A DNA stretch of 64,000 bases from Nodularia sp. NIES-3585 (lineage in GTDB: Bacteria; Cyanobacteriota; Cyanobacteriia; Cyanobacteriales; Nostocaceae). The stretch lies in the NCBI RefSeq assembly GCF_002218065.1, contig NZ_BDUB01000001.1, forward strand, positions 693,567 to 757,566, written 5' to 3'. Both the position numbers and the translations under genes were made by a program. Below are positions 31,514 through 49,874 of the stretch, piece after piece (position 1 is the first letter of the stretch; every line of letters begins with the position of its first letter). The notes below the pieces were generated by a model. It was not told where the DNA came from, searched no databases, and worked only from the letters and a program-made list of their open reading frames with translations.

Positions 31514-34500
31514 ATGGCTGCTTCTAAAATCGAAGCTGAATTAGAACAATTGCAAGATCAGATCAGCAATTGTGAAAAATCTCTGCTGAAGCTAATACAG
31601 GGGAAAAAAATTATGGTGACAAATGTACCGCTAAATACTAGCGAAATAAATAGACAATTGCGACATACACAGATTGCTATCGTTGGTATGGCTTCTATAT
31701 TTCCGCAAGCTAAAAATTTACAAGAATATTGGGAAAATATTATTCATAAAGTTGATTGTATTACGGATGTTCCGCCTTCGCGTTGGAGCATAGATGATTA
31801 TTATGATGCTAACCCCAAAACACCTGACAAAACCTACTGTAAACGAGGTGGATTTATCCCAGAAGTGGATTTCAATCCGATGGAATTTGGTTTACCACCT
31901 AATTTATTAGAAGTTACAGATATTTCCCAGTTGTTAGGTTTGCTAGTTGCCAAATCCGCCATAGAAGATGCTGGTTATGGTGAAACTCGGCAATTTAATC
32001 GTGAACGCACTGGTGTAGTATTGGGTGTGGCTATAGGTAGACAATTAGCTATGCCACTCGGTGCAAGATTGCAATATCCCGTTTGGGAAAAAGTTCTCAA
32101 AAGCAGTGGCTTATCTGATCAAGATACGCAAAGCATAGTTGAGAAAATCAAAAGCGCATATGTGCAGTGGAATGAGAACGCTTTCCCAGGGATGTTAGCT
32201 AATGTCATTACCGGACGAATTGCCAACCGCCTAGATTTGGGGGGAATGAACTGTGTAGTTGATGCTGCCTGTGCCAGTTCTTTGGGTGCGCTGAAAATCG
32301 CCATTAGTGAGCTTGTTGAGCATCGGTCTGACATGATGTTAACTGGTGGAGTTGACACAGATAACTCCATCATGGCTTATATGTGTTTCAGCAAAACCCC
32401 GGCTGTTTCTCCCAGTGAGAATGTCAAACCATTCGATGCTGACTCCGATGGGATGATGCTGGGTGAAGGTGTGGGAATGTTGGTTCTGAAACGCTTGGAA
32501 GATGCCGAGCGAGACAATGACCGCATCTATGCAGTTATTAAAGGTATTGGCAGTTCTAGCGATGGTCGCTATAAAAGCATTTATGCACCTCGTCCAGAAG
32601 GTCAAATCAAAGCCATATATCGTGCTTATGAAGATGCAAACTGTTCGCCTGCGAGTGTCGGTTTAATTGAAGCACACGGCACTGGCACTTTAGCTGGAGA
32701 TCCCACGGAGTTTTCGTCTATTAAAGCAGTTTTTAGCGAAAATAACCCCAAACAACAACATATTGCTCTGGGAAGTGTCAAATCACAGATTGGACATACA
32801 AAAGCGGCTGCGGGTGCGGCAAGTCTGATTAAAACTGCCTTGGCTCTACATCATAAAGTATTGCCACCCACAATTAACATTACTCAACCCCACCCTAAAC
32901 TAAATATTGAAAGTTCTCCGTTTTATTTAAATACCGAAACCAGACCTTGGATTACTACAAATGACCAACCTAGACGAGCTGGAGTCAGTGCTTTTGGCTT
33001 TGGTGGGACTAACTATCATGTGGTTTTGGAAGAATACAATAGGGAACATAACCAACCTTATCGCCTACATAATAGTTTCCAGTCGGTACTAATATCAGCT
33101 AAAACACCCGCAGAGTTGTTATCGCGCTGTGAACAAATCCAACATCAGCTACAATCTGATGCGGGAGAACGGGATTATGCAGAACTAATTGGGGTTGGTA
33201 AGGCTTTAGAAATACCAATCGCAGATGCCAGAGTGGGGTTTGTGGCTAATTCTCTGACTCAAGCCGGGGATTTGTTACAAAAAACCATTGACTTGCTGAA
33301 AAACAAGCTAGAAGCAGAATCTTGGGAGCATCCCCAAGGAATTTACTATCGTAAATCTGGCATCAGCGCAGACAAGAAAGTAGTGGCTCTATTTTCCGGT
33401 CAAGGCTCACAATACTTAGAAATGGGTCGGGAACTGGTAATTAACTTTCCTTGCCTACGGCAGGCTTATGCAGAGATGGATAGGCTGTTGTGCCAAGACG
33501 GTTTACAGCCTGTTTCCGAAGTGGTTTTCCCGAATCCTGTATTTAATCCAGAGCAAAAAGCAGAGCAAATGGCAGCTTTGCAACGGACAGAATACGCACA
33601 GCCAGCAATTGGGGCTTTTAGTGCGGGTCTGTACAAGATTCTCCAACAAGCTGGATTTAAACCAGATATGGTTGCTGGACATAGTTTTGGAGAGCTTACC
33701 GCTTTATGGGTTGCGGGGGTTTTGAGTGAGGAGGATTATTACTTCTTGGTCAAAGCTAGGGGTGAAGCTATGGCTACACCTAAAGACTCTGAGTTTGATC
33801 ATGGAACCATGTTGGCGGTGAAAGGGGATGTGACTCAGGTTAAAAAACTGATCGAAAATTTCCCTCTGGTGAATATTGCTAATTTGAATTCCCATCAACA
33901 GATGGTGCTAGCCGGGACAAAGGCTGAAATTGCCAAAGTTGAAGAGATGCTGACTGCTGAAGGGTTCCATACGGTATTGCTCAAAGTTTCCGCAGCTTTT
34001 CATACATCTCTAGTGGCTTATGCTCTCAAACCTTTTGCCCAGGCTATTGAAAAGGTGAGTTTGCAGCCGCCACAAATCCCGGTTTATACCAATTTTACTG
34101 GGACTCCTTACCCCAATCAGCAAAAAGTTATTCAAAATATTCTCAAAGAACATCTGGGAAGTCAGGTGTTGTTTCAAGAGGAAATTGACAACATTTATGC
34201 TGAAGGCGGCTATTGCTTTGTGGAATTTGGGCCGCGAAATACGCTCACCAATTTAGTTAAGGAGATTCTGGGCGAGCGCTCCCATATAGCTGTAGCATTA
34301 AATACTAATCCTCAAAAAGATAGCGATCGCACTCTCCGAGAAGCTGTTGTACAATTGCGTGTCGCTGGTTTACCTCTGCTCAACCTAGACCCCTATGAAC
34401 AGTCGCGCCCAATTCCAGCAGATGCTCAAACTAAACTCTTGAATGTTCGCTTAAATAGTACCAATTATGTCTCGGACAAAACCAAGCAGTTGTTTGAAAA

Positions 34501-37500
34501 GGCTTTACAAAATGGGCATCAACTAAAATTGCCTGTTAGCAATGGTCATCACCCAGCAACACCAAACTTTTTCACTTCCGAAAGCTTGCGGGACGAAGCC
34601 ATACCTACGGAGAACATAGCAGTCAATGGTGAGGCTAAATTACCTACAGAAAAGGTAGCAGTCAATGGTCGAACTAAATCTATGAAAAACGGGAAATCGG
34701 AACAACAAAATATCAAGTTTACACCAACCAATTCTGAAACATCTGTGGATTACCAGAGAGCCATAGATAACTTAGAATACACCCTGATTGAATTCAACCG
34801 CCATCAACGTCACATTTTGCAGGTTCATGAACAGTCTTTGAAGCATCAGACAGAATATACCAAAACCTTCTTCGGGCTGATGCAACAACAGCATATTTTG
34901 TGGGGAAATGGTAAATTCGTTGAGCAACAACCGCAAACCCAGCAACTTGCTATCTCCAGTACAGAGCGCAGCATTATGCGGTTCCACGAGCATCAAGCTG
35001 ACAGCCTCCGCATTCATGAGCAGTATCTGAACTATCAGCAAGAATATACTAATAACTTTTTCCAATTAGTTCAGCAACATCAACTGCCAACTTGTGACGA
35101 TACTATACAACACGGTTTGATTCCGTCGCTCAAATATCAAGATAGTTCTACTATTCCTGCTTACCCAGAATATCAGCCAGTTTCACTAGCCACAGCCGAT
35201 ACAGTGGCTACTCAACCTCAGCCAGTTCCAATTAACGGTAATGGTAACGGCACACATCATCAACCAACAGAAGTTCTAGATATTGTTACGCCCCAAAAGA
35301 ATCAAACTGCAACTGCAACCATAGTAGCTGCACCACCAGTAGTAATAGAGATTGATACAGCTACCCTGAGCCAAACCCTGCTAACCATTGTCAGTGATAA
35401 GACAGGCTACCCCAGCGAAATGTTAGAAATGTCGATGGACATTGAAGCTGATTTGGGGATTGATTCCATCAAACGTGTGGAGATTTTAGGCGCATTATTA
35501 GAAATATACCCCGATTTACCCCAACCGAATCCAGAGGAACTGGCACAGCTACGTACCCTAGCTGAAATAGCTGAGTATATCAGGACTTTAGCACCAGAAA
35601 ACTCAGTCACACCTGCTGCAACTAGCAATGAAGTATTAGAAGCAGAAACTCCCGAAGCAGAAACCGTAACATCTCTCTCACCTTCCCCAATTCCAGATAA
35701 TCTCAGCCAAATACTGCTCACCATTGTGAGTGATAAAACAGGCTATCCCAGCGAAATGTTAGAGATGTCGATGGATATTGAAGCTGATTTGGGGATTGAT
35801 TCCATCAAACGTGTGGAGATTCTGGGAGCATTGTTAGAGTTATATCCTGATTTACCCCAGCCAAACCCTGAAGAAGTGGCTCCACTGCGTACTCTGCAAG
35901 AAATACTTGATTACATAGAACAGACAGCGGAAGAAGCAGGGGCGCAGGGGGAAGAAGCAGGGGCGCAGGGAGCAGGGAGCAGGGGGGAAAGAGTAGAAGA
36001 GGCAGGGGCGCAGGGGGAAGGAGCAGGGAGCAGGGGGGAAAGGGTAGAGAGTAATTTCTCTTCTCATAGCCAGTCCCTAATTCGCCGCAGTCCGGTTAAA
36101 CTGAAATTTCTTCCTGAACCTGATTTTTTAGATTTCACCTTACCTGCACAGCATATTGCTTTGCTCACCGATGATGGTTCCCTGACTACGACAAAGTTAG
36201 CTGAGGCTTTAAGCAAGCGGGGCTGGAAAACTGTGGTTTTAAGTTTTCCTCAAACTCTGATTGGTAAACAATCGCCTTTACCTGACAGCATCAATCGCGT
36301 AGTTCTGTCAGATTTGAGCGAGGAGCATTTACAACAACAATTAGCGGCGATCGCTTCGGAATATGGTAAAGTTGCCGCATTCATTCATCTCAATCCCTCA
36401 AATCTGCAAAATACCAGTCATCAGGTCTGCTATCCGGAAACCGAAAAATCTATCCTGCGTCACGTTTTTCTCACCGCTAAATACCTCAAAGAATCGTTAA
36501 ATCAAGCAGCGGAGTCAGGACGCAGTTGTTTCTTGACTGTGGCGCGTCTGGATGGCGAGTTCGGACTAGGACAAAAAACTAACTTTGGCGCAATTAGTAG
36601 CGGATTATTCGGACTTACCAAAACTGTTAACCAGGAATGGTCACCTGTATTTTGCCGAGCCTTAGACATCAGTCCTGATTTAGATGCTCAAACTTCGGTA
36701 GAGCATATCCTGGCTGAACTTCACGACTATAATCGATTGGTTGTAGAAGTGGGATATACGGCACAAGGACGCACAACGTTAATCTGTGAACCAGAATCAG
36801 ATGATATTTTTGAGTCTGCAATTCCTGATCCCCAATCCCAAGTATTTCTCGTCAGTGGGGGTGCAAAGGGGATAACAGCTAAATGTGTGATCGAATTAGC
36901 ACAACGTTATCAATGCAGATTTATTCTCCTGGGTCGTTCTGCTGCTGAACCGGAACCTGTATGGGCGGAAGGTTACCTCGGCGAAGCGGAATTGAAAAAG
37001 CGGATTATGGAGGATTTCGTCGCTAAAGCAGATAAACCTACACCTGCAATGGTGCAGAAAAAGTTTCAAACTATTGCATCCAGGCGGGAAATAGCCGCTA
37101 CCTTACAAGCCATTGAGCAAGCGGGTGGACAAGCAGAATACTTGAGTGTGGATGTTACTGATGCGATCGCCCTTTCTGAGCAAGTGGCTGGTGCGGTTGA
37201 GCGTTTGGGTGCAGTTACAGGCATTATTCATGGAGCCGGGAATCTGGCTGATAAGCGGATTGAGAAGAAAACAATCCAAGATTTTGAAACGGTTTACGCG
37301 GCGAAGGTCAAAGGTTTAGAAAACCTGCTGCGGTGTATACCAGATGGTGAATTGCAATATTTAGTGTTGTTTTCCTCTGTGGTCGGCTTTTATGGCAATG
37401 TGGGACAATCAGATTATGCGATCGCTAATGAAATTCTCAACAAATCAGCCCATCTCTTCAAACGCAACCATCCTAATTGTCATGTAGTCGCAATTAATTG

Positions 37501-38527
37501 GGGTCCTTGGGATAGTGGAATGGTATCTCCAGAATTAAAAAAAGCTTTTGCTGAACGAAATATCGCAACAATTCCCCAGGAAATTGGAGCGCAGACGTTA
37601 GTTTCCCAACTGGGACAAAAACATCACCAAACCACACAAGTAGTAATTGGTAGTCCGCTTATCTACACTCCAGAAGCATTAAGCCCAGAGTTAAAAAGCT
37701 TTCGTATCCAGAGGCAATTAACATTAGCAGCAAACCCATTTTTATCTGACCATGTGATTGCAGGTAAACCAGTTCTTCCGGCTACCTGTGCCGTTGCCTG
37801 GATTGCTAATACCGGTGAACAACTCTATCCCGGTTACAAATTTTTTAGTTGCCAAAACTTCAAAGTTTTGAAAGGAATTATCTTTGATGGTGATCAAGCC
37901 AATGAATACATTTTAGATTTAGGAGAAACTTCTAAATCTGCTCACAATCAAATCGAATTTCAGGCTAAAATATGGAGTAACAATTCTGGAAAAATTCGTT
38001 ACCATTTCAGTGCTAATATCACATTGCGGCAACAAATTCCAGTAGCTCCCACCTATGAGTTATTTAACCCCGAAAGAACAAACCCCGATATCAGCACATC
38101 ATTTTATCAAAACGGGGCATCAAGTTTATTTCATGGTTCGGCTTTCCAGGGAGTACAAAGTGTTTTAAATCTGAGCCAGGAGATCATAACTATAGGTTGC
38201 CTATTGCCTAACTTAGACCCAACAAAACAAGGGCAGTTTCCAGTCCAAACATTCAACCCTTATATTGTTGATGTTCAGATTCATTCACTGTGGATTTGGG
38301 CGCAATATTTTCACCAAGTAGGTTGTTTACCTTCAGAAATCCATAATTTTGAGCAGTTTGCAAACCTGCCATTTGGTGAAAAAATGTATATCTCTTGCCA
38401 AGTTAAATCCAAGACGGAATCGGCAGTGGTTGCTGATGTAATCACACACGATTTCAACGGAAGAATATATTCCCGGATGATGGGTGCTAAAGGCATTATT
38501 TTACCTCGAAACTTAGGAACAGTTTAA
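31514..38527 (+). CDS. Iterative PKS, PfaA/HglE-like: KS-AT-ACP-ACP-KR-DH
   Basis: 2337 residues. KS, about 53-480: Cys253 in DAACASS, EAHGTGTLAGDPTEF, KSQIGHTKAAAG, all intact. AT, about 620-940: FSGQGSQY and GHSFGE with Ser724. Two His/Gln-rich helical repeats at about 1078-1215 (LQVHEQSLKHQTEYTKTFF, LRIHEQYLNYQQEYTNNFF). Two near-identical carrier domains with LGIDSIKRVEIL, phosphopantetheine sites Ser1318 and Ser1430. A low-complexity EEAGAQG stretch at about 1473-1512. KR (VSGGAKGITAK near 1778). A C-terminal double-hotdog PS-DH (SDHVIAGKPVLPAT, HGSAFQGV). The tandem DSIKRVEIL carriers and domain order are those of PUFA synthase PfaA and heterocyst glycolipid HglE. It should build a reduced long acyl chain iteratively. 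No thioesterase. Confidence 0.92.
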   Translation: MAASKIEAELEQLQDQISNCEKSLLKLIQGKKIMVTNVPLNTSEINRQLRHTQIAIVGMASIFPQAKNLQEYWENIIHKVDCITDVPPSRWSIDDYYDANPKTPDKTYCKRGGFIPEVDFNPMEFGLPPNLLEVTDISQLLGLLVAKSAIEDAGYGETRQFNRERTGVVLGVAIGRQLAMPLGARLQYPVWEKVLKSSGLSDQDTQSIVEKIKSAYVQWNENAFPGMLANVITGRIANRLDLGGMNCVVDAACASSLGALKIAISELVEHRSDMMLTGGVDTDNSIMAYMCFSKTPAVSPSENVKPFDADSDGMMLGEGVGMLVLKRLEDAERDNDRIYAVIKGIGSSSDGRYKSIYAPRPEGQIKAIYRAYEDANCSPASVGLIEAHGTGTLAGDPTEFSSIKAVFSENNPKQQHIALGSVKSQIGHTKAAAGAASLIKTALALHHKVLPPTINITQPHPKLNIESSPFYLNTETRPWITTNDQPRRAGVSAFGFGGTNYHVVLEEYNREHNQPYRLHNSFQSVLISAKTPAELLSRCEQIQHQLQSDAGERDYAELIGVGKALEIPIADARVGFVANSLTQAGDLLQKTIDLLKNKLEAESWEHPQGIYYRKSGISADKKVVALFSGQGSQYLEMGRELVINFPCLRQAYAEMDRLLCQDGLQPVSEVVFPNPVFNPEQKAEQMAALQRTEYAQPAIGAFSAGLYKILQQAGFKPDMVAGHSFGELTALWVAGVLSEEDYYFLVKARGEAMATPKDSEFDHGTMLAVKGDVTQVKKLIENFPLVNIANLNSHQQMVLAGTKAEIAKVEEMLTAEGFHTVLLKVSAAFHTSLVAYALKPFAQAIEKVSLQPPQIPVYTNFTGTPYPNQQKVIQNILKEHLGSQVLFQEEIDNIYAEGGYCFVEFGPRNTLTNLVKEILGERSHIAVALNTNPQKDSDRTLREAVVQLRVAGLPLLNLDPYEQSRPIPADAQTKLLNVRLNSTNYVSDKTKQLFEKALQNGHQLKLPVSNGHHPATPNFFTSESLRDEAIPTENIAVNGEAKLPTEKVAVNGRTKSMKNGKSEQQNIKFTPTNSETSVDYQRAIDNLEYTLIEFNRHQRHILQVHEQSLKHQTEYTKTFFGLMQQQHILWGNGKFVEQQPQTQQLAISSTERSIMRFHEHQADSLRIHEQYLNYQQEYTNNFFQLVQQHQLPTCDDTIQHGLIPSLKYQDSSTIPAYPEYQPVSLATADTVATQPQPVPINGNGNGTHHQPTEVLDIVTPQKNQTATATIVAAPPVVIEIDTATLSQTLLTIVSDKTGYPSEMLEMSMDIEADLGIDSIKRVEILGALLEIYPDLPQPNPEELAQLRTLAEIAEYIRTLAPENSVTPAATSNEVLEAETPEAETVTSLSPSPIPDNLSQILLTIVSDKTGYPSEMLEMSMDIEADLGIDSIKRVEILGALLELYPDLPQPNPEEVAPLRTLQEILDYIEQTAEEAGAQGEEAGAQGAGSRGERVEEAGAQGEGAGSRGERVESNFSSHSQSLIRRSPVKLKFLPEPDFLDFTLPAQHIALLTDDGSLTTTKLAEALSKRGWKTVVLSFPQTLIGKQSPLPDSINRVVLSDLSEEHLQQQLAAIASEYGKVAAFIHLNPSNLQNTSHQVCYPETEKSILRHVFLTAKYLKESLNQAAESGRSCFLTVARLDGEFGLGQKTNFGAISSGLFGLTKTVNQEWSPVFCRALDISPDLDAQTSVEHILAELHDYNRLVVEVGYTAQGRTTLICEPESDDIFESAIPDPQSQVFLVSGGAKGITAKCVIELAQRYQCRFILLGRSAAEPEPVWAEGYLGEAELKKRIMEDFVAKADKPTPAMVQKKFQTIASRREIAATLQAIEQAGGQAEYLSVDVTDAIALSEQVAGAVERLGAVTGIIHGAGNLADKRIEKKTIQDFETVYAAKVKGLENLLRCIPDGELQYLVLFSSVVGFYGNVGQSDYAIANEILNKSAHLFKRNHPNCHVVAINWGPWDSGMVSPELKKAFAERNIATIPQEIGAQTLVSQLGQKHHQTTQVVIGSPLIYTPEALSPELKSFRIQRQLTLAANPFLSDHVIAGKPVLPATCAVAWIANTGEQLYPGYKFFSCQNFKVLKGIIFDGDQANEYILDLGETSKSAHNQIEFQAKIWSNNSGKIRYHFSANITLRQQIPVAPTYELFNPERTNPDISTSFYQNGASSLFHGSAFQGVQSVLNLSQEIITIGCLLPNLDPTKQGQFPVQTFNPYIVDVQIHSLWIWAQYFHQVGCLPSEIHNFEQFANLPFGEKMYISCQVKSKTESAVVADVITHDFNGRIYSRMMGAKGIILPRNLGTV
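35931..36052. repeat. In-frame GC-rich tandem repeat inside the PKS gene
   Basis: Repeated GAAGCAGGGGCGCAGGGGGA-type units encode EEAGAQG...GSRGER between the second carrier domain and the KR. The same kind of sequence (GCAGGGGTGCAGGGGGCAGG) occurs as non-coding DNA after dedA at about 62090-62123, so an intergenic repeat type appears to have become coding linker. Confidence 0.8.
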
Positions 38528-38595
38528 TACTAATTATCTTTGATAGCTTGCGGGGCGTTCGATAGAACAAACCGCATATCGCTAAAGCGTTTACG

Positions 38596-38701
38596 TATAG
38601 CATTTCCTAGTCTAATAAAGTACAAAACCATCCGCGTTTATCTGCGTCCATCTGCGTTTAATTATTACTGCTTGTACCTCACTTGAATGGGAATTGCTAT
38701 A
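38596..38701 (+). mobile_element. 106-bp MITE-like element, copy 1
   Basis: Ends TATAGCATTTCC and GGAATTGCTATA form a terminal inverted repeat with one mismatch; the outer TA pairs look like a target duplication. A near-identical inverse copy is at 52857-52962. It occupies a third of the 303-bp gap between the PfaA-like and PfaB-like genes; the rest holds fragments of other dispersed repeats. Confidence 0.8.
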
Positions 38702-38833
38702 ACCGTAGGCTTTACGCGCAGCCTATGCCCCCACACAAAGACAGGAAAAGAAACAGGGAAATAAATTCAGTGCATTTCTTAATTAGAAAATATTACAACT
38801 GCCGTTTTACATTACAGTTTTAGGAGTTGGGTG

Positions 38834-41800
38834 ATGGAAAAATTCACGCAAAATCAAATACCTAAAATAGCAATTGTTGGGATGGAATGCTATTTGGGTG
38901 GTGGCTGCGAAGGATTAGATACTTTTGAACAGAGCATTTATGAAGGAACACAACATTTTATGCCCCTGCCTGATCAGCGATGGCAAGAAATAAAACAGCC
39001 AGAACTGCTACTTGAAAAATATGGGTTTAAAGGTGGTCAAGCACCATTAGGAGCATACATTCAAGATTGGCAAATTCCAGCAAAAGCCGGGGATCAATTT
39101 AATCCTCAAGAACTTTTGATGCTTCAGGTAGCTGATAATGCTTTGAAAGATGCGGGTATTCATCCAGGATCAAAAGTTGCCGTAGTAATCGTTAGTGCCG
39201 CAGAACTTGCTCTTTCTCAAAGTAGACAAATTGAATATCCATATATTGAGAATAAACTCGGTAATTATATTTCTCAATTATGGGAATTCACTGGAGCATC
39301 ATTTACATTTACTCCTGAACAAAGCTCTGTTTTCAAGGCTTTAGAATTGGCACAAAAGCTATTAAGTAACAAAGAAGTAGATGCTGTTTTAATCGGTGCA
39401 GTAGAGAAATCCGGGGATAGTGCGAGTGTTTTACTCCGCAATCAAACCACCCCAATCAACACAGGCGTGAATACTCTCAGTTACGACGAAAATGCTAATG
39501 GCTGGATGGTTGGTGAGGGTGCAGCCGCTATTGTCTTGAAGCTGCACGAAACGGCAAAACAACATAACCGCATCTATGCAGTAATTGACGCGCTTAGTCT
39601 TGTAGAAAATCCCACATCTCAAATTAACTCAATTCCTACTGCCATAAATGCAGAAACCATAACTCAAGCTTGTCAACAGGCGTTTCAATTGGCAGATATC
39701 AAACCAACAGACATTGGCTATTTAGAAGTTATTGGTAGTGGTATTCCATCACAAGACGAGTCAGAGATTCGGGGTTTGCTCCAAGCTTATGGGACTTGTG
39801 AAGCCTCTCTGAGTTGCGCCTTGGGTAGTGTCAAAGCTAATGTCGGTCATACCTATGCGGTATCGGGGCTGGTTAGTATAGTTAAAACAGCACTGTGTCT
39901 ATATCGCCATTATATTCCCGTAGTTCCCCAGTGGTCTAGCCCCAAAATGCCAGAGATTTGGCAAGATAGCCCCTTTTATGTGGCGGGGGAATCCAAACCC
40001 TGGTTTTCAGACCAAAGAATAGCTGCTGTTAACGGTATGGAGGTAGATGGGAGTTATGCACATTTAATTTTGTCAGGGGCAGTAGGTCAGCAAACCCATG
40101 GTAACAATTATTTAGCGCAAATTCCTTATTATTTGTTTGCGATCGCAGCTGATGATCAAGCCAGTTTATTAGAGCAGATCCACACTCTACAACAAACTAT
40201 CACTGATTGCTCCTCTTTGAAAGCTGCTGCCAGGGAAACTTTTAAAGCTTTTCAACAGCATCAACAGCCAACTTACACACTGTCTATTCTCGGACGCAAC
40301 CAAGATGAATTAAATCGGGAAATTCAGCGCTCCATCCAGGGTGTTAATATTGCCTTTGAAACAGGCAAAGATTGGCAAACTCCTGTAGGCAGTTATTTCA
40401 CAGCCAAGCCACTAGGCAAAGACAATGATATCGCTTTTGTTTACTCTGGTTCCTTCAATGCTTATGTGGGCATCGCCCGGTATCTCTTCCGGTTTTTCCC
40501 CCAAATTTATGATGACTTGCTAAATAGAGGCATTGATAACCGGGCTGCTAGTATAGAGAAATTGCTTTATCCCAGAAGCTTAACAAAAATCTCCAAAAGG
40601 CAATTAGAAACCATCGAAGAAAAATTGATGGATGATGCCGTAACATTATTGGAATTTGAAGTATACTTCACCGGATTCATGACAGCAATTCTCAGAGATT
40701 ATTTTCAAATTCAGCCGCACTCGGTATTTGGATATAGTCTAGGTGAAACTAGTATGATGTTTGCTCAAGGTGTCTGGAATAACTTTCAGCAAAGTAGTCA
40801 AAACTTGAACTCATCATCCTTGTTTAAAACTAGACTAGTTGGCTCCAAAAATGCCGTGCGCGAATATTGGAGATTGCCCCAAGATAATCATATTACAGAC
40901 CAAAATCTTTGGTCTAACTATGTTCTCTTATGCCCACTAGCCAGTGTTAGAGAAGCCATTAAATCAGAAAACCGCGTTTATTTGACTCTGATAAATACTT
41001 GCGATGAAGTTATAATTGGTGGTGAACCACAAGCCTGTGGAAGAGTCATTGAAAACCTCAAATGTGTTGCTTATCGCACTCCCATCAAGCACGCAATTCA
41101 TTGTGAGCCAATGCGCTCTGAGTACAATGAACTCGCCAAAATCAACACATTACCCGTTGAAAACATCAAAAACACTGTTTTTTATTCCGCAGCAGAATAT
41201 AAACCTATTCCTCTCGATAGTAATTCTATTGGTCACAACATTGCCAAAACGCTATGTCACGAGCTTGATTTTCCTCGGCTAGTGAACCGTGTCTACAATG
41301 ATGGTTCTAAAATCTTACTTGAAGTAGGAGTTGGCGGTAACTGTTCCCGTTGGATTAGTAAAATACTCCAGGGAAAAGAACACTTGACAGTTTCACTGAA
41401 TAGAAGAGGCATAGATGATCATATTTCTATTATCAGAGTATTAGCAAAGCTGTTAAGTCACAGAGTAGAGATGGATTTGTCGCCACTTTATGCTGTCTCA
41501 GAAGAAAATTTTAGCCCCAATAAATTAGCATTAGAAACTAGCAGACTAGGTAGTAATAAAACTGATCATATATCTTTGCCAGAGAATAGTCAGGAAAGAT
41601 TGAAAGAGATATTTCCTAGCTTATCAGTTACATCTCCTAAGCAGCCAGAGAAGTTATTGAAATTAAATGAATTTATCAAATCAACATATTCTGTGAATCA
41701 AAAATTGATGACAACTGAGCCAAAAGCATTTATGAGTAACTTAATCACCGAAAATGTACCAGAAGAAGCGGAGTTAGAGAATAGTCATACAACCACTAGT

Positions 41801-42251: not shown

Positions 42252-43913
42252 ATGCTTACAAACAACCTCCTCAACCATAAACGCAATAATTCCCTTTTAA
42301 AACTTGCCAATTCCTTTGTCAGCCAAAATCAAGTTTGGCAAGGTTCCTTAAACACCATATCCTTTGATGGAAATGGCATCAAAGCCAAACTACTTAACTT
42401 AGATAAACCTTGTTACATTATCAGAATTGAAGATAAAATTGGTGTCAGCAACGAAGGAGAACTCCTTCATTCCCAGAATGGAAAAATAGGACAAGAACTG
42501 CTAATATCAGTTCCAGCCATGCAGATTCAACAATTAGGAGATCCAAATTTTCTAGATTTTCATCATGTAAAATATGCCTATACAACTGGAGCAATGGCGC
42601 ATGGTATCGCCTCTGAAGAATTAGTAATTGCTCTTGGCCAAGAGAAAATTTTAAGTTCATTTGGTGCTGGAGGTTTATCTCTAGACCGTGTTGAAACAGC
42701 CATTAACCGTATTCAGCAAGCCCTACCCCAAGGTCCTTACGCCTTTAACTTACTCCACAGTCCCAGCGAACCTGCTGTTGAACGGGGTGTCATTGATTTG
42801 TATTTGAAATATCAAGTCAGAACAATAGAAGCATCTGCCTTCTTAGACTTGAATGAAAACATTGTTTATTATCGGGCTGCGGGACTAAGTTTGAATGTAG
42901 CCAATGAAATCGAAATCAAAAATAAAGTCATTGCTAAAATTTCTCGCCGAGAAGTTGCCACAAAATTTTTAGAACCTGCTCCTTTTAAAATTCTCAAAAA
43001 ATTAGTCCAGCAAGGTCTTATCAGTGAATTACAAGCAACTCTAGCCGCCAAAATTCCCATGGCTGATGATATTACCGTAGAAGCTGATTCTGGTGGTCAC
43101 ACAGATAATCGTCCTTTAGTTTGTTTGTTACCATCCATTCTAGAATTAAGAGATCAAATTCAAGGCCAATATGGTTATGAAAGACCAGTCAGAATTGGAG
43201 TAGCCGGAGGAATTGCCACTCCCCAATCAGCCTTAGCTGCCTTTATGATGGGCGCTGCTTATGTTGTGACTGGTTCCATTAACCAATCCTGTATTGAAGC
43301 TGGGACTTCTCAATATACAAAACAATTACTAGCTCAGGCAGAGATGGCTGATGTCATGATGGCTCCAGCCGCAGATATGTTTGAAATGGGAGTGAAATTG
43401 CAAGTTCTTAAAAGAGGAACACTCTTTCCTCTCAGAGCGCAAAAACTATATGATTTATACAAAAACTATGATTCAATTGAAGATATACCTATTGCCGAAA
43501 GAGAAAAACTAGAAAAACAAGTTTTCAAAGCCAATCTAGATGCGATTTGGCAAGAAACAGTTAATTACTTATCTCAACGTAATCCCGATAAATTGCAGAA
43601 AGCAATCAATAATCCTAAGCTAAAAATGGCTGTAATTTTTCGCTGGTATTTGGGATTATCTTCTCGTTGGTCTAATTCGGGTGAAAAAGGTCGAGAAATT
43701 GATTATCAAATCTGGTGTGGCCCGGCAATGGGTAGCTTCAATAACTGGATAAAAGGTTCTTATTTGGCAGATTTAAATAATCGCCGAGTCGTTGATGTTG
43801 CTAATCAAATTATGACTGGCGCGGTATTTTTATACCGGATGCAAGTTTTAAAAATTGAGGGATTAGAAATGCCAACTTACTACAGTACCTATCACCCAGT
43901 TCATTTTAACTAA
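42252..43913 (+). CDS. PfaD-like FMN-dependent enoyl reductase
   Basis: 553 residues of the PfaD/nitronate-monooxygenase TIM-barrel family, the trans-acting enoyl reductase of PUFA and heterocyst glycolipid synthases. Recognisable elements: YTTGAMAHGIASEELVIALG, FGAGGLSLDRVETAI, the active-site EADSGGHTDNRPL, the FMN phosphate loop VRIGVAGGIATPQSALAAF, and GTSQYTKQLLAQAEMADVMM. It should reduce enoyl intermediates on the PKS carrier domains so that the product is partly or fully saturated. It starts 106 bp after the PfaB-like gene and is followed by the ferredoxin gene after 92 bp. Confidence 0.92.
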   Translation: MLTNNLLNHKRNNSLLKLANSFVSQNQVWQGSLNTISFDGNGIKAKLLNLDKPCYIIRIEDKIGVSNEGELLHSQNGKIGQELLISVPAMQIQQLGDPNFLDFHHVKYAYTTGAMAHGIASEELVIALGQEKILSSFGAGGLSLDRVETAINRIQQALPQGPYAFNLLHSPSEPAVERGVIDLYLKYQVRTIEASAFLDLNENIVYYRAAGLSLNVANEIEIKNKVIAKISRREVATKFLEPAPFKILKKLVQQGLISELQATLAAKIPMADDITVEADSGGHTDNRPLVCLLPSILELRDQIQGQYGYERPVRIGVAGGIATPQSALAAFMMGAAYVVTGSINQSCIEAGTSQYTKQLLAQAEMADVMMAPAADMFEMGVKLQVLKRGTLFPLRAQKLYDLYKNYDSIEDIPIAEREKLEKQVFKANLDAIWQETVNYLSQRNPDKLQKAINNPKLKMAVIFRWYLGLSSRWSNSGEKGREIDYQIWCGPAMGSFNNWIKGSYLADLNNRRVVDVANQIMTGAVFLYRMQVLKIEGLEMPTYYSTYHPVHFN

Positions 43914-44005
43914 GAGATGGAATTTTGCAATTTCACACTTCAATTCAGAAACGCCAAACTTGTTCTATCTGTTAACCCTGTTTCATAATTCCGAGGAGTT
44001 CAGAA

Positions 44006-44293
44006 ATGATCGCATCTATTCATTTTGAAGATGACAAAAAAACACTTCAAGTTGAAGCCAATCAACCCTTAACGAAGATTTGTGATGATCATCCTGTTTC
44101 AATCTTATTTGGTTGTCGTAGCGTTGCCTGTGGAACCTGCCTGATAGAAATTTTGAGTGGGATGGATAATCTCTCTTCCATTAGAGAGGAAGAGCGAATT
44201 TTACTAGATATTTTGGTTCCAGATCATCCCAATCTTCGTCTAGCTTGTCAATGCGTAGTGCAGGGTGATATTCGGATTCGAGTAGCTAATTAA
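44006..44293 (+). CDS. [2Fe-2S] plant-type ferredoxin
   Basis: 95 residues with the cluster motif Cys37-x4-Cys42-x2-Cys45 and Cys81 (GCRSVACGTC ... LRLACQC). This is closer to the FCRFGACGTC group than to photosynthetic PetF. GAGGAG lies 8 bp before the ATG. Its place inside the lipid cluster suggests it feeds electrons to a cluster enzyme, perhaps an oxygenase or the unrecognised 644-residue protein, but no oxygenase is evident and PfaD enzymes normally use NAD(P)H. The partner is unknown. Confidence 0.88.
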   Translation: MIASIHFEDDKKTLQVEANQPLTKICDDHPVSILFGCRSVACGTCLIEILSGMDNLSSIREEERILLDILVPDHPNLRLACQCVVQGDIRIRVAN

Positions 44294-44422
44294 CTTTCGG
44301 TTATTACCTAAAATTCTTTGTCTTTTGCAGATACAAATTAGTAGCAAAAGCTAATAATTTATTCTCATCTGTCTAACCGTGTACTTTTCCAAATTTTCTG
44401 CCAATTGGGAAATAATCAAACT

Positions 44423-45811
44423 ATGAGTACATCTAATATTTTACCAAGTCACACCCAAGAGGATGTTCAAAAATTGCGCGTAAATGATAGAAAATTGGGA
44501 TGTCTTGAGCAGGCTATGGAAAAGTTAAATAGCCGTGCTAAAACCTGGAACATAGTCACTACTAGTCGCATAAAAGGACCTCTAAGTGCAGAAATTCTCA
44601 GACAGGCTCTAGATATAATTCAGCACCGCCACCCCCGACTTAATTCACGAATTGTCCGTTTTAGAAATAGTCTGCGTTTTCAAACTGAAGGAACAGCAAA
44701 GATTCCTTTGCATATTGTGGAAAAGTTTGATCATCAGCAGTGGACAGAAGTCGTTAAACAAGAAATGAACCAAGCCATTGATAGCAGCAAATGTCTGATG
44801 CGAGCTATACTTGTACAAATCAAGAATAACAGTCATGAAAACTACTTAATTACAACCGGACATCATGCTGTTGGGGATGGTTTATCATCCATCCATCTGC
44901 ATTCAGAAATATTGACTTATTGTCAGCAAATTGTCTCTGGAAACCTGATTAAACCAGTTATTAGTTTACCCCCATTGCCTCCTGTAGAAGAACTATTACC
45001 TACATGGACAAGGAGGTTTAAAGGTAAAATACTCAGTACATTATTTATGTTGGAGTTGGGGCTAAAAAAAATTTGGCATCGACCACAAACATTAGGCTTT
45101 GAAAATTATGTCCCTATTTCCCAGCGTCGTTGTGATATTGTTCACAGGCAACTTGACAAAGAATTAACCCAACAGTTAATTAATTCTTGTCGGCAGGCAA
45201 AGACAACAGTAAATAGTGCTTTGTGTGCGGCAATGATGTTAATAATTGTCAGCCAAATAAGTCAAAATAATAGCAAAGGTATCAGAGTAAACTGCCTATC
45301 TTACCTTGATTTACGGAGACATCTAGAATCGACAATTAGCAATGAGCAGATGACTGTATTAGCTTCATCTATTATGGGGTTTTATACTATACAGAAAAAC
45401 ATATCTTTTTGGGAATTAGCACGGCAGGTGAAACAAAAGTTTGAAGCTAGTACAAAGAGCCGCGATATTTTTAAAATGATTTTAGTCGCAAAGCATCTGA
45501 TAGATTTTTCTCTCACCTACCCTAAGCAAGTAGCCGCCACAGTATCTGTATCTAATGCTGGTAGAGTCAATGTCTCCAAAGATTATGGTGAATTTGAATT
45601 AGAAGAAATAAGTTTTGTGGGTTCTCATGCTCTATATGCAGGGATGTTTATTACCCATGCTTCAACTTTTCAAGGAAAAATGCTGTTGAACTTTGTGTTT
45701 TCTGAACCTTCAATTAGTCGCCATACCATGGAGAATCTTGTGAATCAATTTATGTCCTATATTTCCCATGTTTGCCACTTAGAAGTTGAGCCAAGTTTAA
45801 CTAAAATTTGA
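44423..45811 (+). CDS. PapA5/condensation-superfamily acyltransferase, copy 1
   Basis: 462 residues from the ATG at 44423 (an earlier TTG is unlikely). The catalytic HHAVGDG motif (His147-His148, Asp151) of condensation-type acyltransferases is intact. The N-terminal RKLGCLEQAMEKLNSRAKTW, IKGPLSAEILRQALDIIQHR and RLNSRI recall mycobacterial PapA5, which esterifies phthiocerol diols with carrier-bound acyl chains. The solvent-channel-side NYGEFELEEISF-like stretch (DYGEFELEEISFVGS) is also present. Inferred role: transfer of an acyl chain from a carrier protein to a hydroxyl of the polyketide lipid, or chain release. A closely related copy follows after a 91-bp MITE. Confidence 0.85.
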   Translation: MSTSNILPSHTQEDVQKLRVNDRKLGCLEQAMEKLNSRAKTWNIVTTSRIKGPLSAEILRQALDIIQHRHPRLNSRIVRFRNSLRFQTEGTAKIPLHIVEKFDHQQWTEVVKQEMNQAIDSSKCLMRAILVQIKNNSHENYLITTGHHAVGDGLSSIHLHSEILTYCQQIVSGNLIKPVISLPPLPPVEELLPTWTRRFKGKILSTLFMLELGLKKIWHRPQTLGFENYVPISQRRCDIVHRQLDKELTQQLINSCRQAKTTVNSALCAAMMLIIVSQISQNNSKGIRVNCLSYLDLRRHLESTISNEQMTVLASSIMGFYTIQKNISFWELARQVKQKFEASTKSRDIFKMILVAKHLIDFSLTYPKQVAATVSVSNAGRVNVSKDYGEFELEEISFVGSHALYAGMFITHASTFQGKMLLNFVFSEPSISRHTMENLVNQFMSYISHVCHLEVEPSLTKI

Positions 45812-45819
45812 CCTGTATT

Positions 45820-45910
45820 TATAGCTGGGGAGTGGGGAGTGGGTTAAAACCCTTTTGGTGTCTAAGTTTGATTATCCGTTTATGTCTTAACCTCCTTGGC
45901 GGTTGCTATA
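45820..45910 (+). mobile_element. 91-bp MITE-like element, copy 2
   Basis: Near-identical inverse copy of 29023-29113, ends TATAGC and GCTATA. It lies in the gap between the two acyltransferase genes and includes a partial GGGGAGT repeat. It contributes the sequence just before the second gene, including its false upstream start region. Confidence 0.75.
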
Positions 45911-45943
45911 GCTCGGTGCTTAGAAAAGAGTAAAACACAAGCA

Positions 45944-47302
45944 ATGAAAACGCTTATAGATAAAAAAATGATTAGTAACAGAAAACTAGGACATCTTGAG
46001 CAGGTTATGGAAAAAGTAAATAGCCATGCTAAAACCTGGAATATAGTCACTATCAGCCGCATCAAGGGACCTCTGAGTGCAGAAATTATCAGACAGGCTT
46101 TAGATATAATTCAACTTCGCCACACTCGACTTAATTCTCGGATTATTTATTCTAAAAACGGTCTCCGCTTTCAAACAGAAGGAACAACAAAGATTCCTTT
46201 GCGTGTTGTTAAACATTTTCATGATCAACAGTGGCAAGAAGTTGTTCGTGAAGAGATGAACCAGGAAATTGATAGCAGTAAATGTCTGCTACGAGCTGTG
46301 CTTGTTAATATCCAGAGTGACAGCCATGTAAATTACCTGATTATAACAGGACATCATGCAGTTGGAGATGGACTATCATCTATCCGACTTCAGTCAGAAA
46401 TCTTGACTTATTGTGAGAAAATCGTAGCTGGAGACTTAAATAATTCAGTTGTTAGTTTGTTGCCTCTTCCATCGATAGAAGAACTACTACCACCAGAAAC
46501 AAAAGGGTTAAAAGGTAAGATAGTTAGCACATTGTTTTTTTTACAAGTAGCATTTAAAAAACTTTTTTATCCTCCAGAAACGTTAAATTTTGAAAAGTAT
46601 GCACCGATTAGTAAACGTCGTTGTGATATTGTCCATAGACAGCTTGACCAAAAGGTAACCCAACAGTTAATCCATCGTTGTCGCCAAGAAAAAACAACAG
46701 TGAATAGTGCTTTATGCGCTGCAATGATGTTTGCAGTAGCTAGCAAAATCAAGAAAGGTAATCGAAAAAAAATTCGCATGAATTGCCTAACGGCGATTGA
46801 TTTGAGAAAACGTTTAGAAACTAAAATTAATGAGCATCATATGGCTGTCTTAGTCTCATCTATTATGGGATCTTATACCATAAAAACCAACACATCATTT
46901 TGGGAATTAGCTAGGGAAGTAAAGCAAACTATTGAAACTAGTATTCAGCGTGGCGATATCTTTAAAACGATATTAGTATCCCGGCATATGATAAATTTTT
47001 GTTTAGCCTACCCTAAGCAATTAGCTGCTACAGTGTTGCTATCCAATATTGGTAAAGTAAACATACCTAACAATTACGGAGAATTTGAATTAGAAGAAAT
47101 CAGTTTTACTAGCTCACAGTCTTTGTACGCAGGTATGCTAACGAGTCATACTGCGACTTTCAGAGGAAAAATGTTGTTGAATTTTGTGTTTTCTGAGCCT
47201 TCAATCAGTCGCGATAAGATGGAGGAACTGGTAAACAATTGTATGCTTTATATTCTTCATGTTTGTCAGTTCAAAGTTGAGCAGAATTTAACGAGTGTTT
47301 AA
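45944..47302 (+). CDS. PapA5/condensation-superfamily acyltransferase, copy 2
   Basis: 452 residues from the ATG at 45944. The frame extends to 45896, but that part overlaps the MITE and is not conserved with copy 1. HHAVGDG is intact (His137-His138). It aligns with copy 1 over its whole length with long shared blocks (EQ.MEK.NS.AKTWNIVT, CDIVHRQLD, TTVNSALCAAMM, GEFELEEISF), so the pair arose by tandem duplication. Having both retained suggests two distinct acyl donors or two hydroxyl acceptors, which is inference. The carrier protein gene follows 247 bp downstream. Confidence 0.85.
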   Translation: MKTLIDKKMISNRKLGHLEQVMEKVNSHAKTWNIVTISRIKGPLSAEIIRQALDIIQLRHTRLNSRIIYSKNGLRFQTEGTTKIPLRVVKHFHDQQWQEVVREEMNQEIDSSKCLLRAVLVNIQSDSHVNYLIITGHHAVGDGLSSIRLQSEILTYCEKIVAGDLNNSVVSLLPLPSIEELLPPETKGLKGKIVSTLFFLQVAFKKLFYPPETLNFEKYAPISKRRCDIVHRQLDQKVTQQLIHRCRQEKTTVNSALCAAMMFAVASKIKKGNRKKIRMNCLTAIDLRKRLETKINEHHMAVLVSSIMGSYTIKTNTSFWELAREVKQTIETSIQRGDIFKTILVSRHMINFCLAYPKQLAATVLLSNIGKVNIPNNYGEFELEEISFTSSQSLYAGMLTSHTATFRGKMLLNFVFSEPSISRDKMEELVNNCMLYILHVCQFKVEQNLTSV

Positions 47303-47549
47303 TTTAGAATATTCCGATTGATTGCTGAGATAAATAATTACTTTTTGCTAATCAAGTAATTGTCAAATCTGTATTTTGTTTTTCCTTACAGCAGTTTTCA
47401 TTTAGATGAAGGACAGATTTAGCTACATTCATCTGTGGTTCATGATTTTTTGATCTACTAGACTCAATGCCAAACTGCTCTATGTTGAAAAATAAATCCT
47501 CTTTTATCACTTTCATCATCTAGATACTTTTCTTTTAAAGGTGAAAAAA

Positions 47550-47855
47550 ATGAACCAATCCAATCCTAACCCAAGTGCTATTCAATCTTATACTGTAGAA
47601 GAAATTGAAACTTGGCTAGTCTCCCAAATTGCTGAACAGTTGAATATTCAAACTGATGAAATAGATGTTAAAGAACCTTTAGATAGCTACGGGTTGGATT
47701 CAGTCCAAGCTATGATGCTGGCAAATAAAGCAGAGAAATTTCTGGGCTTTAAGCTGTCTCCTATGCTGATGTGGCATTACCCGACTATTGCATCACTATC
47801 CAAGCGTTTGGTCGAAGATTTGGAAGATTCCGAGTCAGATATATTTCAGATTTAA
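47550..47855 (+). CDS. Stand-alone acyl/peptidyl carrier protein
   Basis: 101 residues from the ATG at 47550, with AAAGGTG 5-11 bp upstream; a GTG at 47541 is an alternative. The phosphopantetheine site is YGLDSVQAMML with Ser51, followed by LGFKLSPMLMWHYPTIASLSKRL, typical of PKS/NRPS-associated carriers (Pfam PP-binding). It is unlike the two DSIKRVEIL carriers in the PKS, so it probably carries a different acyl group, perhaps the donor for the adjacent HHxxxDG acyltransferases. No phosphopantetheinyl transferase is in the window. Confidence 0.9.
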   Translation: MNQSNPNPSAIQSYTVEEIETWLVSQIAEQLNIQTDEIDVKEPLDSYGLDSVQAMMLANKAEKFLGFKLSPMLMWHYPTIASLSKRLVEDLEDSESDIFQI

Positions 47856-47939
47856 TTACTGACATTTTGGACTATTCTCAATAATCTTCAGGTGGGAACT
47901 TTCCAAAAGGTAAAAATAAGGGTGTGAGCGAATGGAAAC

Positions 47940-49874
47940 ATGAGCCACCCTACAAAATTTACTAATGTTTTGCAACAATTAGGGTATTTTGAAACTATGA
48001 AAGCATCAGAACTTGTGACAACTCTGACTCAAAAAGGTGTCTATCTTTGGGTCGATAATGGCAAACTCAAGATTCGTTCTCCCAAGGGTGTAATTACTCC
48101 AGAAATTCAAGCAAATCTCATGGCTTACAAAACAGAGATTCTGGCTTTTATCCGCGATAGGGATATCATTACACATACTGAAGTTATGCCTCTGGTACAG
48201 GGGCTAAATTTGCAAACTATTGGACGTTTAATTGGGGGCTTTGTGGGTAAAACCACTATGGAATATAAGCCACCTATTATTGACCCTAAAAAGATGGCTC
48301 AACAGTTAATGGTTACATTCAAACCTTTGCCTAAGAACTATAAAAATGCAGAAATTTTGCAATTCCGCCAAGAATTAGAAAATTATCTCAGGCAATATGG
48401 TGTCAAACTTATTCCTTGGGAGCAAGCCATTACAGAGTTTAGTTATGATATCTTACTGCCGATAATTAACCAAACAAAAAACTTTAAGGTTAAGGGAATT
48501 AAAGCGGCAATCAATGCTGTGATTGATGTAGAACATCCTCCTTCTTTGTGGAGAAAATTGGGAATTTGTGCTGCTGAAAATTGGTATAGTTTTTATTCCA
48601 ATTTTATCTTAAAAAAACGAAAAATGTCTGTGGTAAATATTGCCAAAGTTAGTAGTTGGGCTGAAGACCATGCAGCGAAATATGTGGAAGATCCTACTAA
48701 TACTCAGGTAATAGTTTTAACAAAAATAGATCATGATTTTATTAACCCAGACATACCATATCAAGAAAAAATCAATATCGGTTTAAACACTTTAATTAGA
48801 ACTTTTTCGGAAATTGTAATTGGAGTTGCTGTTGATAAGATTTCTATTTTAAATATGAATCTTTCAGACTCTATTTTTCCAAAAGAAGAGATGGGAGAGT
48901 TTGTTTTTAAATCACTAATTCCGAAAGTTTTTGTGCCAATTTCTCCACTTTTATTAAATCGGTTTGATATAGGAGAGTATCAACCAGAAGAATCTATCTA
49001 TGCTAAAAGATTAGTAAAATTGGGTCAAGACCTGGCATTAACAGGTCTATTTCCTCCTGGTTTTAAACTCAATGAAGTAATTAAAAGAAAGTCTCACAGA
49101 GATATTGTCAATGTGATTGTGAACGGTAGAACAGGTGTTTCTTATGGTTTTGTGGCTTATGCTGAACCTCCGCAATATTTTGGTGCTAAGGAAATAAATA
49201 TAACTGAATGGGAAAGTTTATCGCCTCTTGAGGGATTTAGCAGTAATGAACTCCGTCAAAATGAACAAGGTAGACGTTATCTCAAAACCAAAATACAAGG
49301 AGAAAATGTATTTAAGCAGATCCCGGATATTTGGCTGGTTAGCGCTCGTTCAGGGTCAAATAAAACCAATTTAAATCTTGCTAGTGATGTGATTAGAGTT
49401 GGTTTAAAAGAAAAATTATATCTGCAATTACCTGAAGGTATTCATACAAATAAGGTAGATATCAAACCTTCTTATGATATCTATGTGATGCTGGCTATTA
49501 GTCTCTCTGCGGCTTTATATACGCCAGATTTAATTCAAGATGGTGCGCCAATTGTTCATTTTCACGGCTATCCAGCTTTTGATTGGTTTAAACCAAATGA
49601 ATATTGTGTGGGAGTACATAACCCTTCTGTCCCTTGTGGTACTTATGAATCGGGAGTATTCAATTTTTTGGGTATTTCTAGTTTAGCAAATCAACCTATG
49701 GCAAAGATGTCGTTAATCAGCTTAGTGGAACCAGATCATGGGACAAATTTTATCGGACGTGATTTGGAGTACCTTGTGGAAAGGTTGAAAACTGGATGTG
49801 CAGAGGGGCAAATTGAGTTAGGTGGTAAGCATTTTGCTTCTCTGAAGGCTAAAGTTGAAAAATGTGGAATGTGA
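47940..49874 (+). CDS. TubC-type docking domain fused to an unrecognised 570-residue domain
   Basis: 644 residues. Residues about 18-75 match the TubC N-terminal docking domain of PKS/NRPS lines (SELVTTLTQKGVYLWVDNGK, LKIRSPKGVITPEIQANLMA, then AYKTEILAFIRD). The remaining 570 residues fit no family I know: soluble, no signal peptide, with LIRTFSEIVIGVAV, VNVIVNGRTGVSYGFVAYAE and a C-terminal DGAPIVHFHGYPAFDWFKPN, ...VPCGTYESGVFNFLG. The His/Cys-containing HFHGYP and VPCGTYESG stretches could be catalytic, but that is a guess. It is the last gene of the cluster, 84 bp after the carrier protein, and should dock onto another cluster protein. No HHxxxDG motif, so it is not a condensation domain. 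Confidence 0.8.
   Translation: MSHPTKFTNVLQQLGYFETMKASELVTTLTQKGVYLWVDNGKLKIRSPKGVITPEIQANLMAYKTEILAFIRDRDIITHTEVMPLVQGLNLQTIGRLIGGFVGKTTMEYKPPIIDPKKMAQQLMVTFKPLPKNYKNAEILQFRQELENYLRQYGVKLIPWEQAITEFSYDILLPIINQTKNFKVKGIKAAINAVIDVEHPPSLWRKLGICAAENWYSFYSNFILKKRKMSVVNIAKVSSWAEDHAAKYVEDPTNTQVIVLTKIDHDFINPDIPYQEKINIGLNTLIRTFSEIVIGVAVDKISILNMNLSDSIFPKEEMGEFVFKSLIPKVFVPISPLLLNRFDIGEYQPEESIYAKRLVKLGQDLALTGLFPPGFKLNEVIKRKSHRDIVNVIVNGRTGVSYGFVAYAEPPQYFGAKEINITEWESLSPLEGFSSNELRQNEQGRRYLKTKIQGENVFKQIPDIWLVSARSGSNKTNLNLASDVIRVGLKEKLYLQLPEGIHTNKVDIKPSYDIYVMLAISLSAALYTPDLIQDGAPIVHFHGYPAFDWFKPNEYCVGVHNPSVPCGTYESGVFNFLGISSLANQPMAKMSLISLVEPDHGTNFIGRDLEYLVERLKTGCAEGQIELGGKHFASLKAKVEKCGM

Follow-up and report, generated by a model that had tools for sequence, protein, structure and literature searches.

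An orphan protein with a predicted carrier-docking domain takes the place of HglB in some hgl-type islands of cyanobacteria

Introduction

How does a lipid assembly line release its chain when its gene cluster encodes neither a thioesterase (TE) nor a thioester reductase (TR)? This question is raised by a cluster of eight plus-strand genes (31514..49874) in a 64,000-nt stretch of Nodularia sp. NIES-3585 (NZ_BDUB01000001.1:693,567-757,566, forward strand; hereafter the window). The initial annotation described a chain builder of the polyunsaturated fatty acid (PUFA) synthase/Hgl type (PfaA, PfaB, PfaD), followed by a ferredoxin, two PapA5-type acyltransferases, an acyl carrier protein (ACP, here P0007) and an orphan protein with a docking domain (here P0008). 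The eight open reading frames (ORFs) were confirmed at their coordinates, with no internal stop in any of them. Their domain labels hold in Pfam and NCBIfam family searches and motif checks, and the same searches bear out the type of the chain builder. PfaC, TE, TR and glycosyltransferase genes are indeed absent from the cluster: the family search detected no FabA-like dehydratase/isomerase domains of PfaC in the eight cluster proteins, and no glycosyltransferase, hglT-type included, was found among the 18 window proteins scanned. HglB, which contains a TR domain, sits in the canonical heterocyst glycolipid (hgl) island of the same genome. We propose that P0008 is probably a carrier-docked chain-release enzyme that has displaced the HglB thioester reductase in an hgl-like island with a putative DevBCA-type exporter.

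The orphan and HglB exchange places after PfaD

The orphan stands after PfaD, in the place of the last step of the hgl-type island, which is also the position of HglB. The association was counted from PfaD in 100 genomes, i.e., the window's own and 99 relatives, of which 63 contain PfaD, at 99 sites. A gene was regarded as near PfaD within 12 kb for HglB and within 20 kb for the orphan (in genome G016 the distance is 19 kb), and HglB places with <60% identity, mostly long frames of the nonribosomal peptide synthetase (NRPS) type, were left out. HglB only was present at 56 sites, the orphan only at 28, both at 3 and neither at 12 (Fisher p 4e-12). Among the sites with neither, G011:C198 and G019:C39 are situated at the start of a contig or close to it, and the one in G045 belongs to a decayed island. 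This hgl-like island (L178; G045:C20:10000-29999) retains a whole PfaD and fragments of PfaA, PfaB, DevA and DevB, with no HglB or orphan. Only this PfaD-based count is free of selection bias. A second set of 120 loci was drawn with the orphan as query, and orphan presence there proves nothing; it comprises 80 named and 40 unnamed loci, which overlap, as the identical PfaD of L063/L134 and of L068/L142 indicates.

The carrier and orphan replace HglB by position in both directions, between syntenic neighbours. In genome G020, an hgl-like island (DevB, a 107-aa gene, PfaA, PfaB, PfaD, PapA-like gene) has HglB where the carrier and orphan otherwise sit, and this genome is without the orphan. The opposite exchange is found in four islands of the canonical type. 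A PfaD tree was built from 39 rows, among which the canonical PfaD of the window genome is the only canonical HglB-type row. The PfaD proteins of G037 (L052), G040 (L056), G039 (L053) and G019 (L055) group with that row (Shimodaira-Hasegawa-like approximate likelihood ratio test, SH-aLRT, 100). The islands of G037, G039 and G040 match the canonical island of the window genome in PfaD (85%), HglC (66-73%) and HglG-type proteins (71-73%). The hgd genes match at 74-84% in G037 and G039, while the contig of G040 ends before them. HetI is 72-73% identical in all four genomes, G019 having been compared in the downstream part of the island only.

The interval between PfaD and HetI contains HglB and a 267-aa short-chain dehydrogenase/reductase (SDR) in the window genome, vs an ACP, the orphan and a different SDR in these four genomes. 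This second kind of SDR is 26-30% identical to the 267-aa SDR and 58-62% identical to the SDR that stands behind the orphan in a cluster of modular polyketide synthases (PKS) (three genomes); in G019 it is a partial match, 89% identical to that of G039. It was present in 42 of the 120 orphan loci, including 17 of the 18 modular ones. It lies further down in L133, and in L136, the eighteenth modular locus, the contig ends after the orphan. The second-kind SDR is a possible working partner of the orphan. Examples are found at L130:11876-12739 and L184:2186-3043.

No close HglB relative was found in G039 at E <= 1e-90; in G037, G040 and G019, the matches reach no more than 44-47% and fall in long NRPS-type frames. 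Similarly, a family search for TR domains at E <= 1e-30 was negative for G039 and gave one or two, in long frames, for each of the other three. The nifD gene scored over its cut-off in G039, G040 and G019. The best match in G037 (G037:C1:458751-459650) is partial (1-295) and under the cut-off, which may reflect a nifD excision element. In locus L134, an HglB-type ACP-TR protein stands in addition to the orphan.

A conserved carrier tail accompanies the orphan

All 120 loci, which represent two unrelated assembly-line contexts, have a carrier match on the strand of the orphan and at most 3.5 kb upstream of it; this carrier is either a free protein or the C-terminal end of a PKS. Its last residues form a tail of the kind SEIFEI or SDIFQI in 117/120 loci, compared with 0/22 other free ACPs of the same loci (pattern of the last three residues, [FIL][EQH][ILMFV]). 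The three misses are L033, L072 and L097, where the scan began at a stop codon; the tail was seen in L072 and L097. On the orphan side, the docking strand mostly reads K-L-x-I-R-S-P-K-G and is largely basic, with K42 in 54 and R46 in 49 of 62 sequences and S47 and G50 in all 62. According to the accessible text of PMC9113145, TubC_N-type domains bind the last five residues of a tail through charged and hydrophobic contacts, and the known pairs of short linear motif and beta-hairpin docking domain (SLiM-bhD) use charged partners. From the conservation of the tail and the charge pattern, we infer that the TubC_N domain of P0008 serves as the docking site for SDIFQI of P0007.

The orphan represents a conserved cyanobacterial family

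Across 84,980 species genomes, the orphan-query search yielded 140 stretches encoding a relative, of which the best 80 were retained and inspected ~10 kb to each side. All of these 80 loci are cyanobacterial. PfaD is part of 55 of them and a modular type I PKS part of 18; the other 7 show neither. Full-length orphans were present in 16 of 146 genomes drawn from the phylum, where further matches covered the docking domain only. One relative lies on a plasmid record, annotated as 'hypothetical protein'.

For the body of the orphan, neither Pfam (up to E = 10) nor PHROGs gave a match; NCBIfam returned a single chance match (E 0.07), and PDB sequences gave only chance matches outside the docking domain. 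The reductase models TIGR01746 and NAD_binding_4 did not match the orphan either, nor did they match the body alone up to E = 10. For the alignments, L073, L074, L133, L138 and L146 were dropped from the 80 rows, as a stop lies just before the gene start; of the remaining 75, 61 plus the window protein entered alignment A2, and 16 plus the window protein entered alignment A3. More than 100 positions are invariant across 62 sequences. The AlphaFold model built with these sequences (mean pLDDT 81.3, pTM 0.81) predicts a low-confidence N-terminus and a large body of mixed alpha/beta fold. No cofactor site was found in the sequence.

The carrier and orphan pair also ends modular clusters of the FAAL-PKS type. 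When the 62 orphans were placed in a tree, all 13 sequences of modular PKS clusters fell together (SH-aLRT 99), so that a single transfer from one kind of assembly line to the other, in either direction, would suffice for this sample. One locus, L171, on plasmid Cy782201 (880 kb) of Gloeothece verrucosa PCC 7822, contains FAAL, ACP, hypothetical protein, two PKS, orphan, oxidoreductase and sulfotransferase genes together. Another, L140 of strain HT-58-2, lies within antiSMASH region 5, 'T1PKS, carbamidocyclophanes', for which the accessible part of PMC8073705 gives no product assignment that we could find.

Proposed pathway and alternatives

Gene content, motif conservation and the exchange of positions are observed directly; together with the enzyme families, they suggest the following pathway. 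PfaA, the PfaB-type subunit and PfaD would iteratively build a long, mostly saturated 3-hydroxyacyl chain, which would pass to the stand-alone carrier P0007. With the carrier tail docked on TubC_N, the body of P0008 would release the chain in the role of the HglB reductase, perhaps aided by an SDR in those islands that have one; in the window, no SDR stands directly behind the orphan. The PapA5-like enzymes would probably esterify a hydroxyl with an acyl group, and transport of the lipid to the cell envelope would fall to the divergent DevBCA-type pump. The product would be a reduced hydroxy-lipid. The sugar of heterocyst glycolipids is attached at C-1, which suggests that release may be reductive, although the sequence gave no sign of a cofactor site.

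Several points weigh against this proposal. What the loci demonstrate is positional replacement; catalysis of release by the orphan is a prediction, as is the product, which is predicted from the enzyme families. Three PfaD sites (G004, G076 and G078) contain both genes, so HglB and the orphan are not strictly interchangeable, and there are also the 12 sites with neither. Because the island types to which the 99 sites belong are related, the Fisher value overstates independence. The PfaA match of G020 skips residues 1004-1394 and its PfaD lies on a long, unsure branch; the label 'hgl-like' of its island therefore rests on the neighbouring genes. Finally, the tail pattern was written after the tails had been inspected, and the carriers are related by descent.

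The three sites with both genes would fit two consecutive steps, in which the orphan acts as a carrier-docked tailoring enzyme (e.g., in oxidation, cyclisation or branching of the ACP-bound chain) and another enzyme releases the chain; bhD domains also precede methyltransferases and halogenases, as described in the accessible text of PMC9113145. Such a tailoring role is nevertheless unlikely, as 28 of the 99 sites have the orphan without HglB, and G039 keeps a canonical-type hgl island and nifD with no TR domain at the above threshold (thioesterases elsewhere were not searched). Moreover, the modular orphan clusters contain no PapA-like gene in the ~10 kb inspected to each side (0/18). The genome of the window does have an HglB, and the carrier domain of this HglB is related to P0007, so the HglB of the canonical island could act in trans, with the orphan as an accessory or scaffold protein. 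We regard this as very improbable: the four genomes with an orphan in a canonical-type island lack an HglB orthologue, their reductase domains being of the NRPS type where there are any, and the number of invariant positions in the orphan would be unusual for a scaffold.

The initial annotation proposed that the lipid is released or decorated by esterification. Taken as release, this would mean that the PapA5-like enzymes esterify the chain directly to an alcohol. PapA5 itself transfers mycocerosic acids in this way. The model is in line with the two HHAVGDG proteins of the window and with PapA-like genes in 44 of the 55 PfaD loci, and a PapA-like gene is also part of the hgl-like island of G020, which has HglB. 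However, in the DNA inspected (~10 kb to each side), PapA-like genes were not seen in 11/55 PfaD loci or in any of the 18 modular PKS loci (4/7 of the other loci contain them), and their copy number per PfaD locus varies from 0 to 3. PapA5-like proteins 1 and 2 score only 75.9 and 67.1 bits, respectively, against a cut-off of 396 for curated PapA5. In G020 and G004 a PapA-like gene coexists with HglB and is thus no stand-in for it there, and it is the carrier and orphan that replace HglB in position. PapA-driven release was therefore set aside as the defining logic, and we consider it quite unlikely as the mechanism in the window. Across the loci compared, the carrier and orphan are more constant than the PapA-like genes.

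Release by the orphan thus remains the reading that we favour. Tentatively, we extend it to a new class of carrier-docked terminal release enzymes that would share no ancestry with thioesterases, thioester reductases or condensation domains, would have displaced HglB in the heterocyst glycolipid pathway of some N2-fixing cyanobacteria and, often with a dedicated SDR, would have moved between Pfa-type and FAAL-PKS assembly lines. If the orphan releases the chain, hgl-like islands gain an identifiable last step. A non-homologous replacement would then exist for the step that gives heterocyst glycolipids the attachment point of their head group, and an enzyme family so far without assignment would be added to PKS chain release.

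Other genes of the island and its surroundings

The features of the island are listed in Table 1. The TTG or GTG starts of four of the eight cluster ORFs may be too early. The motif scan of PfaA detected DAACAS, EAHGTGT, GHSFGE, two LGIDS and HVIAGKPVLPA; the Ser-Tyr-Asn motif of its ketoreductase (KR) was missed by the pattern scan and seen by eye. The alignment of PfaA spans both the hglE- and the hglG-type ORFs of the same genome. The assignment of the second protein as PfaB-like, with ketosynthase (KS)-like and acyltransferase (AT) domains, is correct as to the family. Its KS-like domain, however, has TPEQSSVF at the active-site position and no Cys (the AT domain has GYSLGE), and it aligns with the CLF-AT (chain-length factor-AT) part of the genome's own 1556-aa HglC-type protein at 46%, vs 26% with the KS part. 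The protein is therefore a CLF-AT subunit, which leaves the KS of PfaA as the sole KS with Cys in the cluster. PfaD is 72% identical to the PfaD of the canonical island, and P0007 is 54% identical to the ACP domain of HglB over 83 aa.

Table 1. Features of the hgl-like island in the window
Feature	Position	Strand	Evidence
DevA-type ABC exporter ATPase	25535..26278	-	TIGR02982 374.5 bits, cut-off 295.8; 19/20 upstream regions
DevC/HgdC-type permease	26411..27583	-	TIGR01185 470.3 bits, cut-off 290.35; 20/20 upstream regions
DevB/HgdB-type membrane fusion protein	27766..28959	-	TIGR02971 357.9 bits, cut-off 129; 20/20 upstream regions
Conserved 107-aa protein	29357..29680	-	No Pfam/NCBIfam match; 18/20 upstream regions, 81-94% identity
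PfaA/fused HglE-F-G-type synthase, KS-AT-ACP-ACP-KR-dehydratase (DH)	31514..38527	+	TIGR02813 2262 bits, cut-off 1010
PfaB/HglC-type CLF-AT subunit	38831..42145	+	TIGR02816 144.3 bits, exactly at cut-off
PfaD/HglA-type enoyl reductase	42252..43913	+	TIGR02814 665.8 bits, cut-off 449
[2Fe-2S] ferredoxin	44006..44293	+	Fer2
PapA5-like acyltransferase 1	44405..45811	+	PapA_C + Condensation, HHAVGDG
PapA5-like acyltransferase 2, 66% identical to the first	45896..47302	+	PapA_C + Condensation, HHAVGDG
Stand-alone acyl carrier protein P0007	47541..47855	+	PP-binding
C-terminal tail SDIFQI of P0007, putative docking motif	47835..47852	+	Conserved tail pattern
Orphan P0008: TubC_N + ~560-aa body matching no family searched	47940..49874	+	
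TubC_N (beta-hairpin docking) domain of P0008	48009..48155	+	PF18563 64.5 bits, cut-off 26

The initial annotation listed the eight genes correctly and overlooked the divergent DevB, DevC and DevA genes and the conserved 107-aa ORF upstream. The upstream regions were compared in 20 related islands with PfaA, PfaB, PfaD and the orphan, from 19 genomes and with enough contig, and there too the DevBCA genes and the 107-aa gene are divergent from PfaA. One of the 20 regions, L168, belongs to a canonical-type island, and its DevB is more distant (53%). The window genome contains seven devC matches, among which the DevC of the window ranks sixth by score (470 bits; best 712). The window pump was therefore rejected as the main heterocyst exporter; it is probably the island's own, dedicated to the hgl-like island. 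The 107-aa protein was matched in 24 of 60 genomes. A second copy (73%) lies at G000:C1:2633746-2634063, with no island genes within the 20 kb inspected.

In related loci, the ferredoxin gene follows a gene for a 432-aa protein with a diiron motif (DEARH, read by eye), which lies between PfaD and the ferredoxin. This protein weakly matches AurF (E 0.035) and, in a BLAST comparison, the AurF/CylC-like protein of a modular cluster (E 5e-4). Its full gene is present in 18/120 loci (L077:6268-7563 and 17 others), and L120 retains a broken piece. Among the named loci, the ferredoxin occurs in 15, namely 14 of those with the full gene plus L120. The diiron-motif gene was not found in the window or in the rest of the genome, the genome search having been made without a positive control. 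The ferredoxin is thus probably a remnant of a ferredoxin-diiron pair, i.e., of a lost oxidation or halogenation step, and was rejected as a core part of the island.

The gene next to the orphan encodes a PhoX-type phosphatase on the other strand. Further downstream, a manganese catalase homologue (51772-52416, minus strand) matches only model positions 103-263 of 268; its N-terminal third is missing and its score is under the cut-off.

Comparison with known systems

The initial annotation considered the arrangement undescribed and asked for related clusters and for a canonical hgl island in the same genome. Related loci bear out the conservation of the cluster in other Nostocales, and the canonical island is present at C1:3187813-3212843. 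It contains hgdA/B/C-type genes (names assigned by position and family), HglE/G/C-type synthases, PfaD, HglB (ACP and thioester reductase, TIGR01746 364 bits) and HetI (NF042922 422.5 bits, cut-off 370). The novelty of the arrangement as a whole was not sustained. The accessible text of PMC11804610 (2025) describes additional islands for 259 of the 494 genomes in which an hgl island is present, many of them compact 'hgl-like islands' with hgdCB and hglEAFGCA homologues, whose products are unknown and thought not to serve heterocytes or akinetes. It also reports C24 1,3-diols and their glycosides from Gloeocapsopsis crepidinum LEGE 06123, and its hgd names are used here for related proteins. 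The window cluster fits these islands, so the island type is already known. It shares with them the hgdC and hgdB homologues beside the synthase genes (DevC and DevB, over cut-off and divergent upstream), the homologues of hglEA, hglF, hglG, hglC and hglA in few ORFs, its location in addition to a larger canonical island, and, among the window proteins scanned, the lack of an hglT-type glycosyltransferase.

A related class is formed by three 'nitronate monooxygenase-containing' (CylC) clusters with PKS, ferredoxin, ACP or glycosyltransferase genes in the accessible part of PMC8406957. Like the window, these Nostocales clusters have a PfaD-type gene, a type I PKS, a ferredoxin and an ACP, and no known product; unlike them, the window has kept only the ferredoxin and has no diiron-motif (distant CylC-like) gene. 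We infer that they belong to the same island type. Other cyanobacterial Pfa-like clusters are described in PMC13291983 and PMC3098273, in the accessible parts of which the arrangement of the window was not found. PUFA (Pfa) synthases have PfaC with FabA-like domains, which the window cluster does not.

With phthiocerol/phthiodiolone dimycocerosyl transferase (PapA5), the two acyltransferases share PapA_C and Condensation domains, HHxxxDG and an adjoining lipid synthase, but they score under the curated PapA5 cut-off. The words acyltransferase, PfaD, ferredoxin and condensation do not occur in the main text of PMC11804610, and nothing was found there on the carrier and orphan pair, on its tail or on an exchange with HglB. 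Keyword searches, with subscription papers mostly outside their scope, did not find the orphan or its docking named. Like the SLiM-bhD pairs of NRPS and PKS-NRPS systems (PMC9113145, accessible text), the orphan has an N-terminal TubC_N domain and its carrier a short conserved C-terminal tail; its body, in contrast, belongs to none of the recognised domain types (condensation, cyclisation, TE, TR, methyltransferase or other). The canonical HglB island has the same kind of chain builder, a related carrier domain and its terminal protein in the same position after PfaD, but HglB matches TIGR01746 and the orphan does not, and the window genome has both types of island. What looks new is a docked terminal protein found in exchange for HglB, even in some islands of the canonical type.

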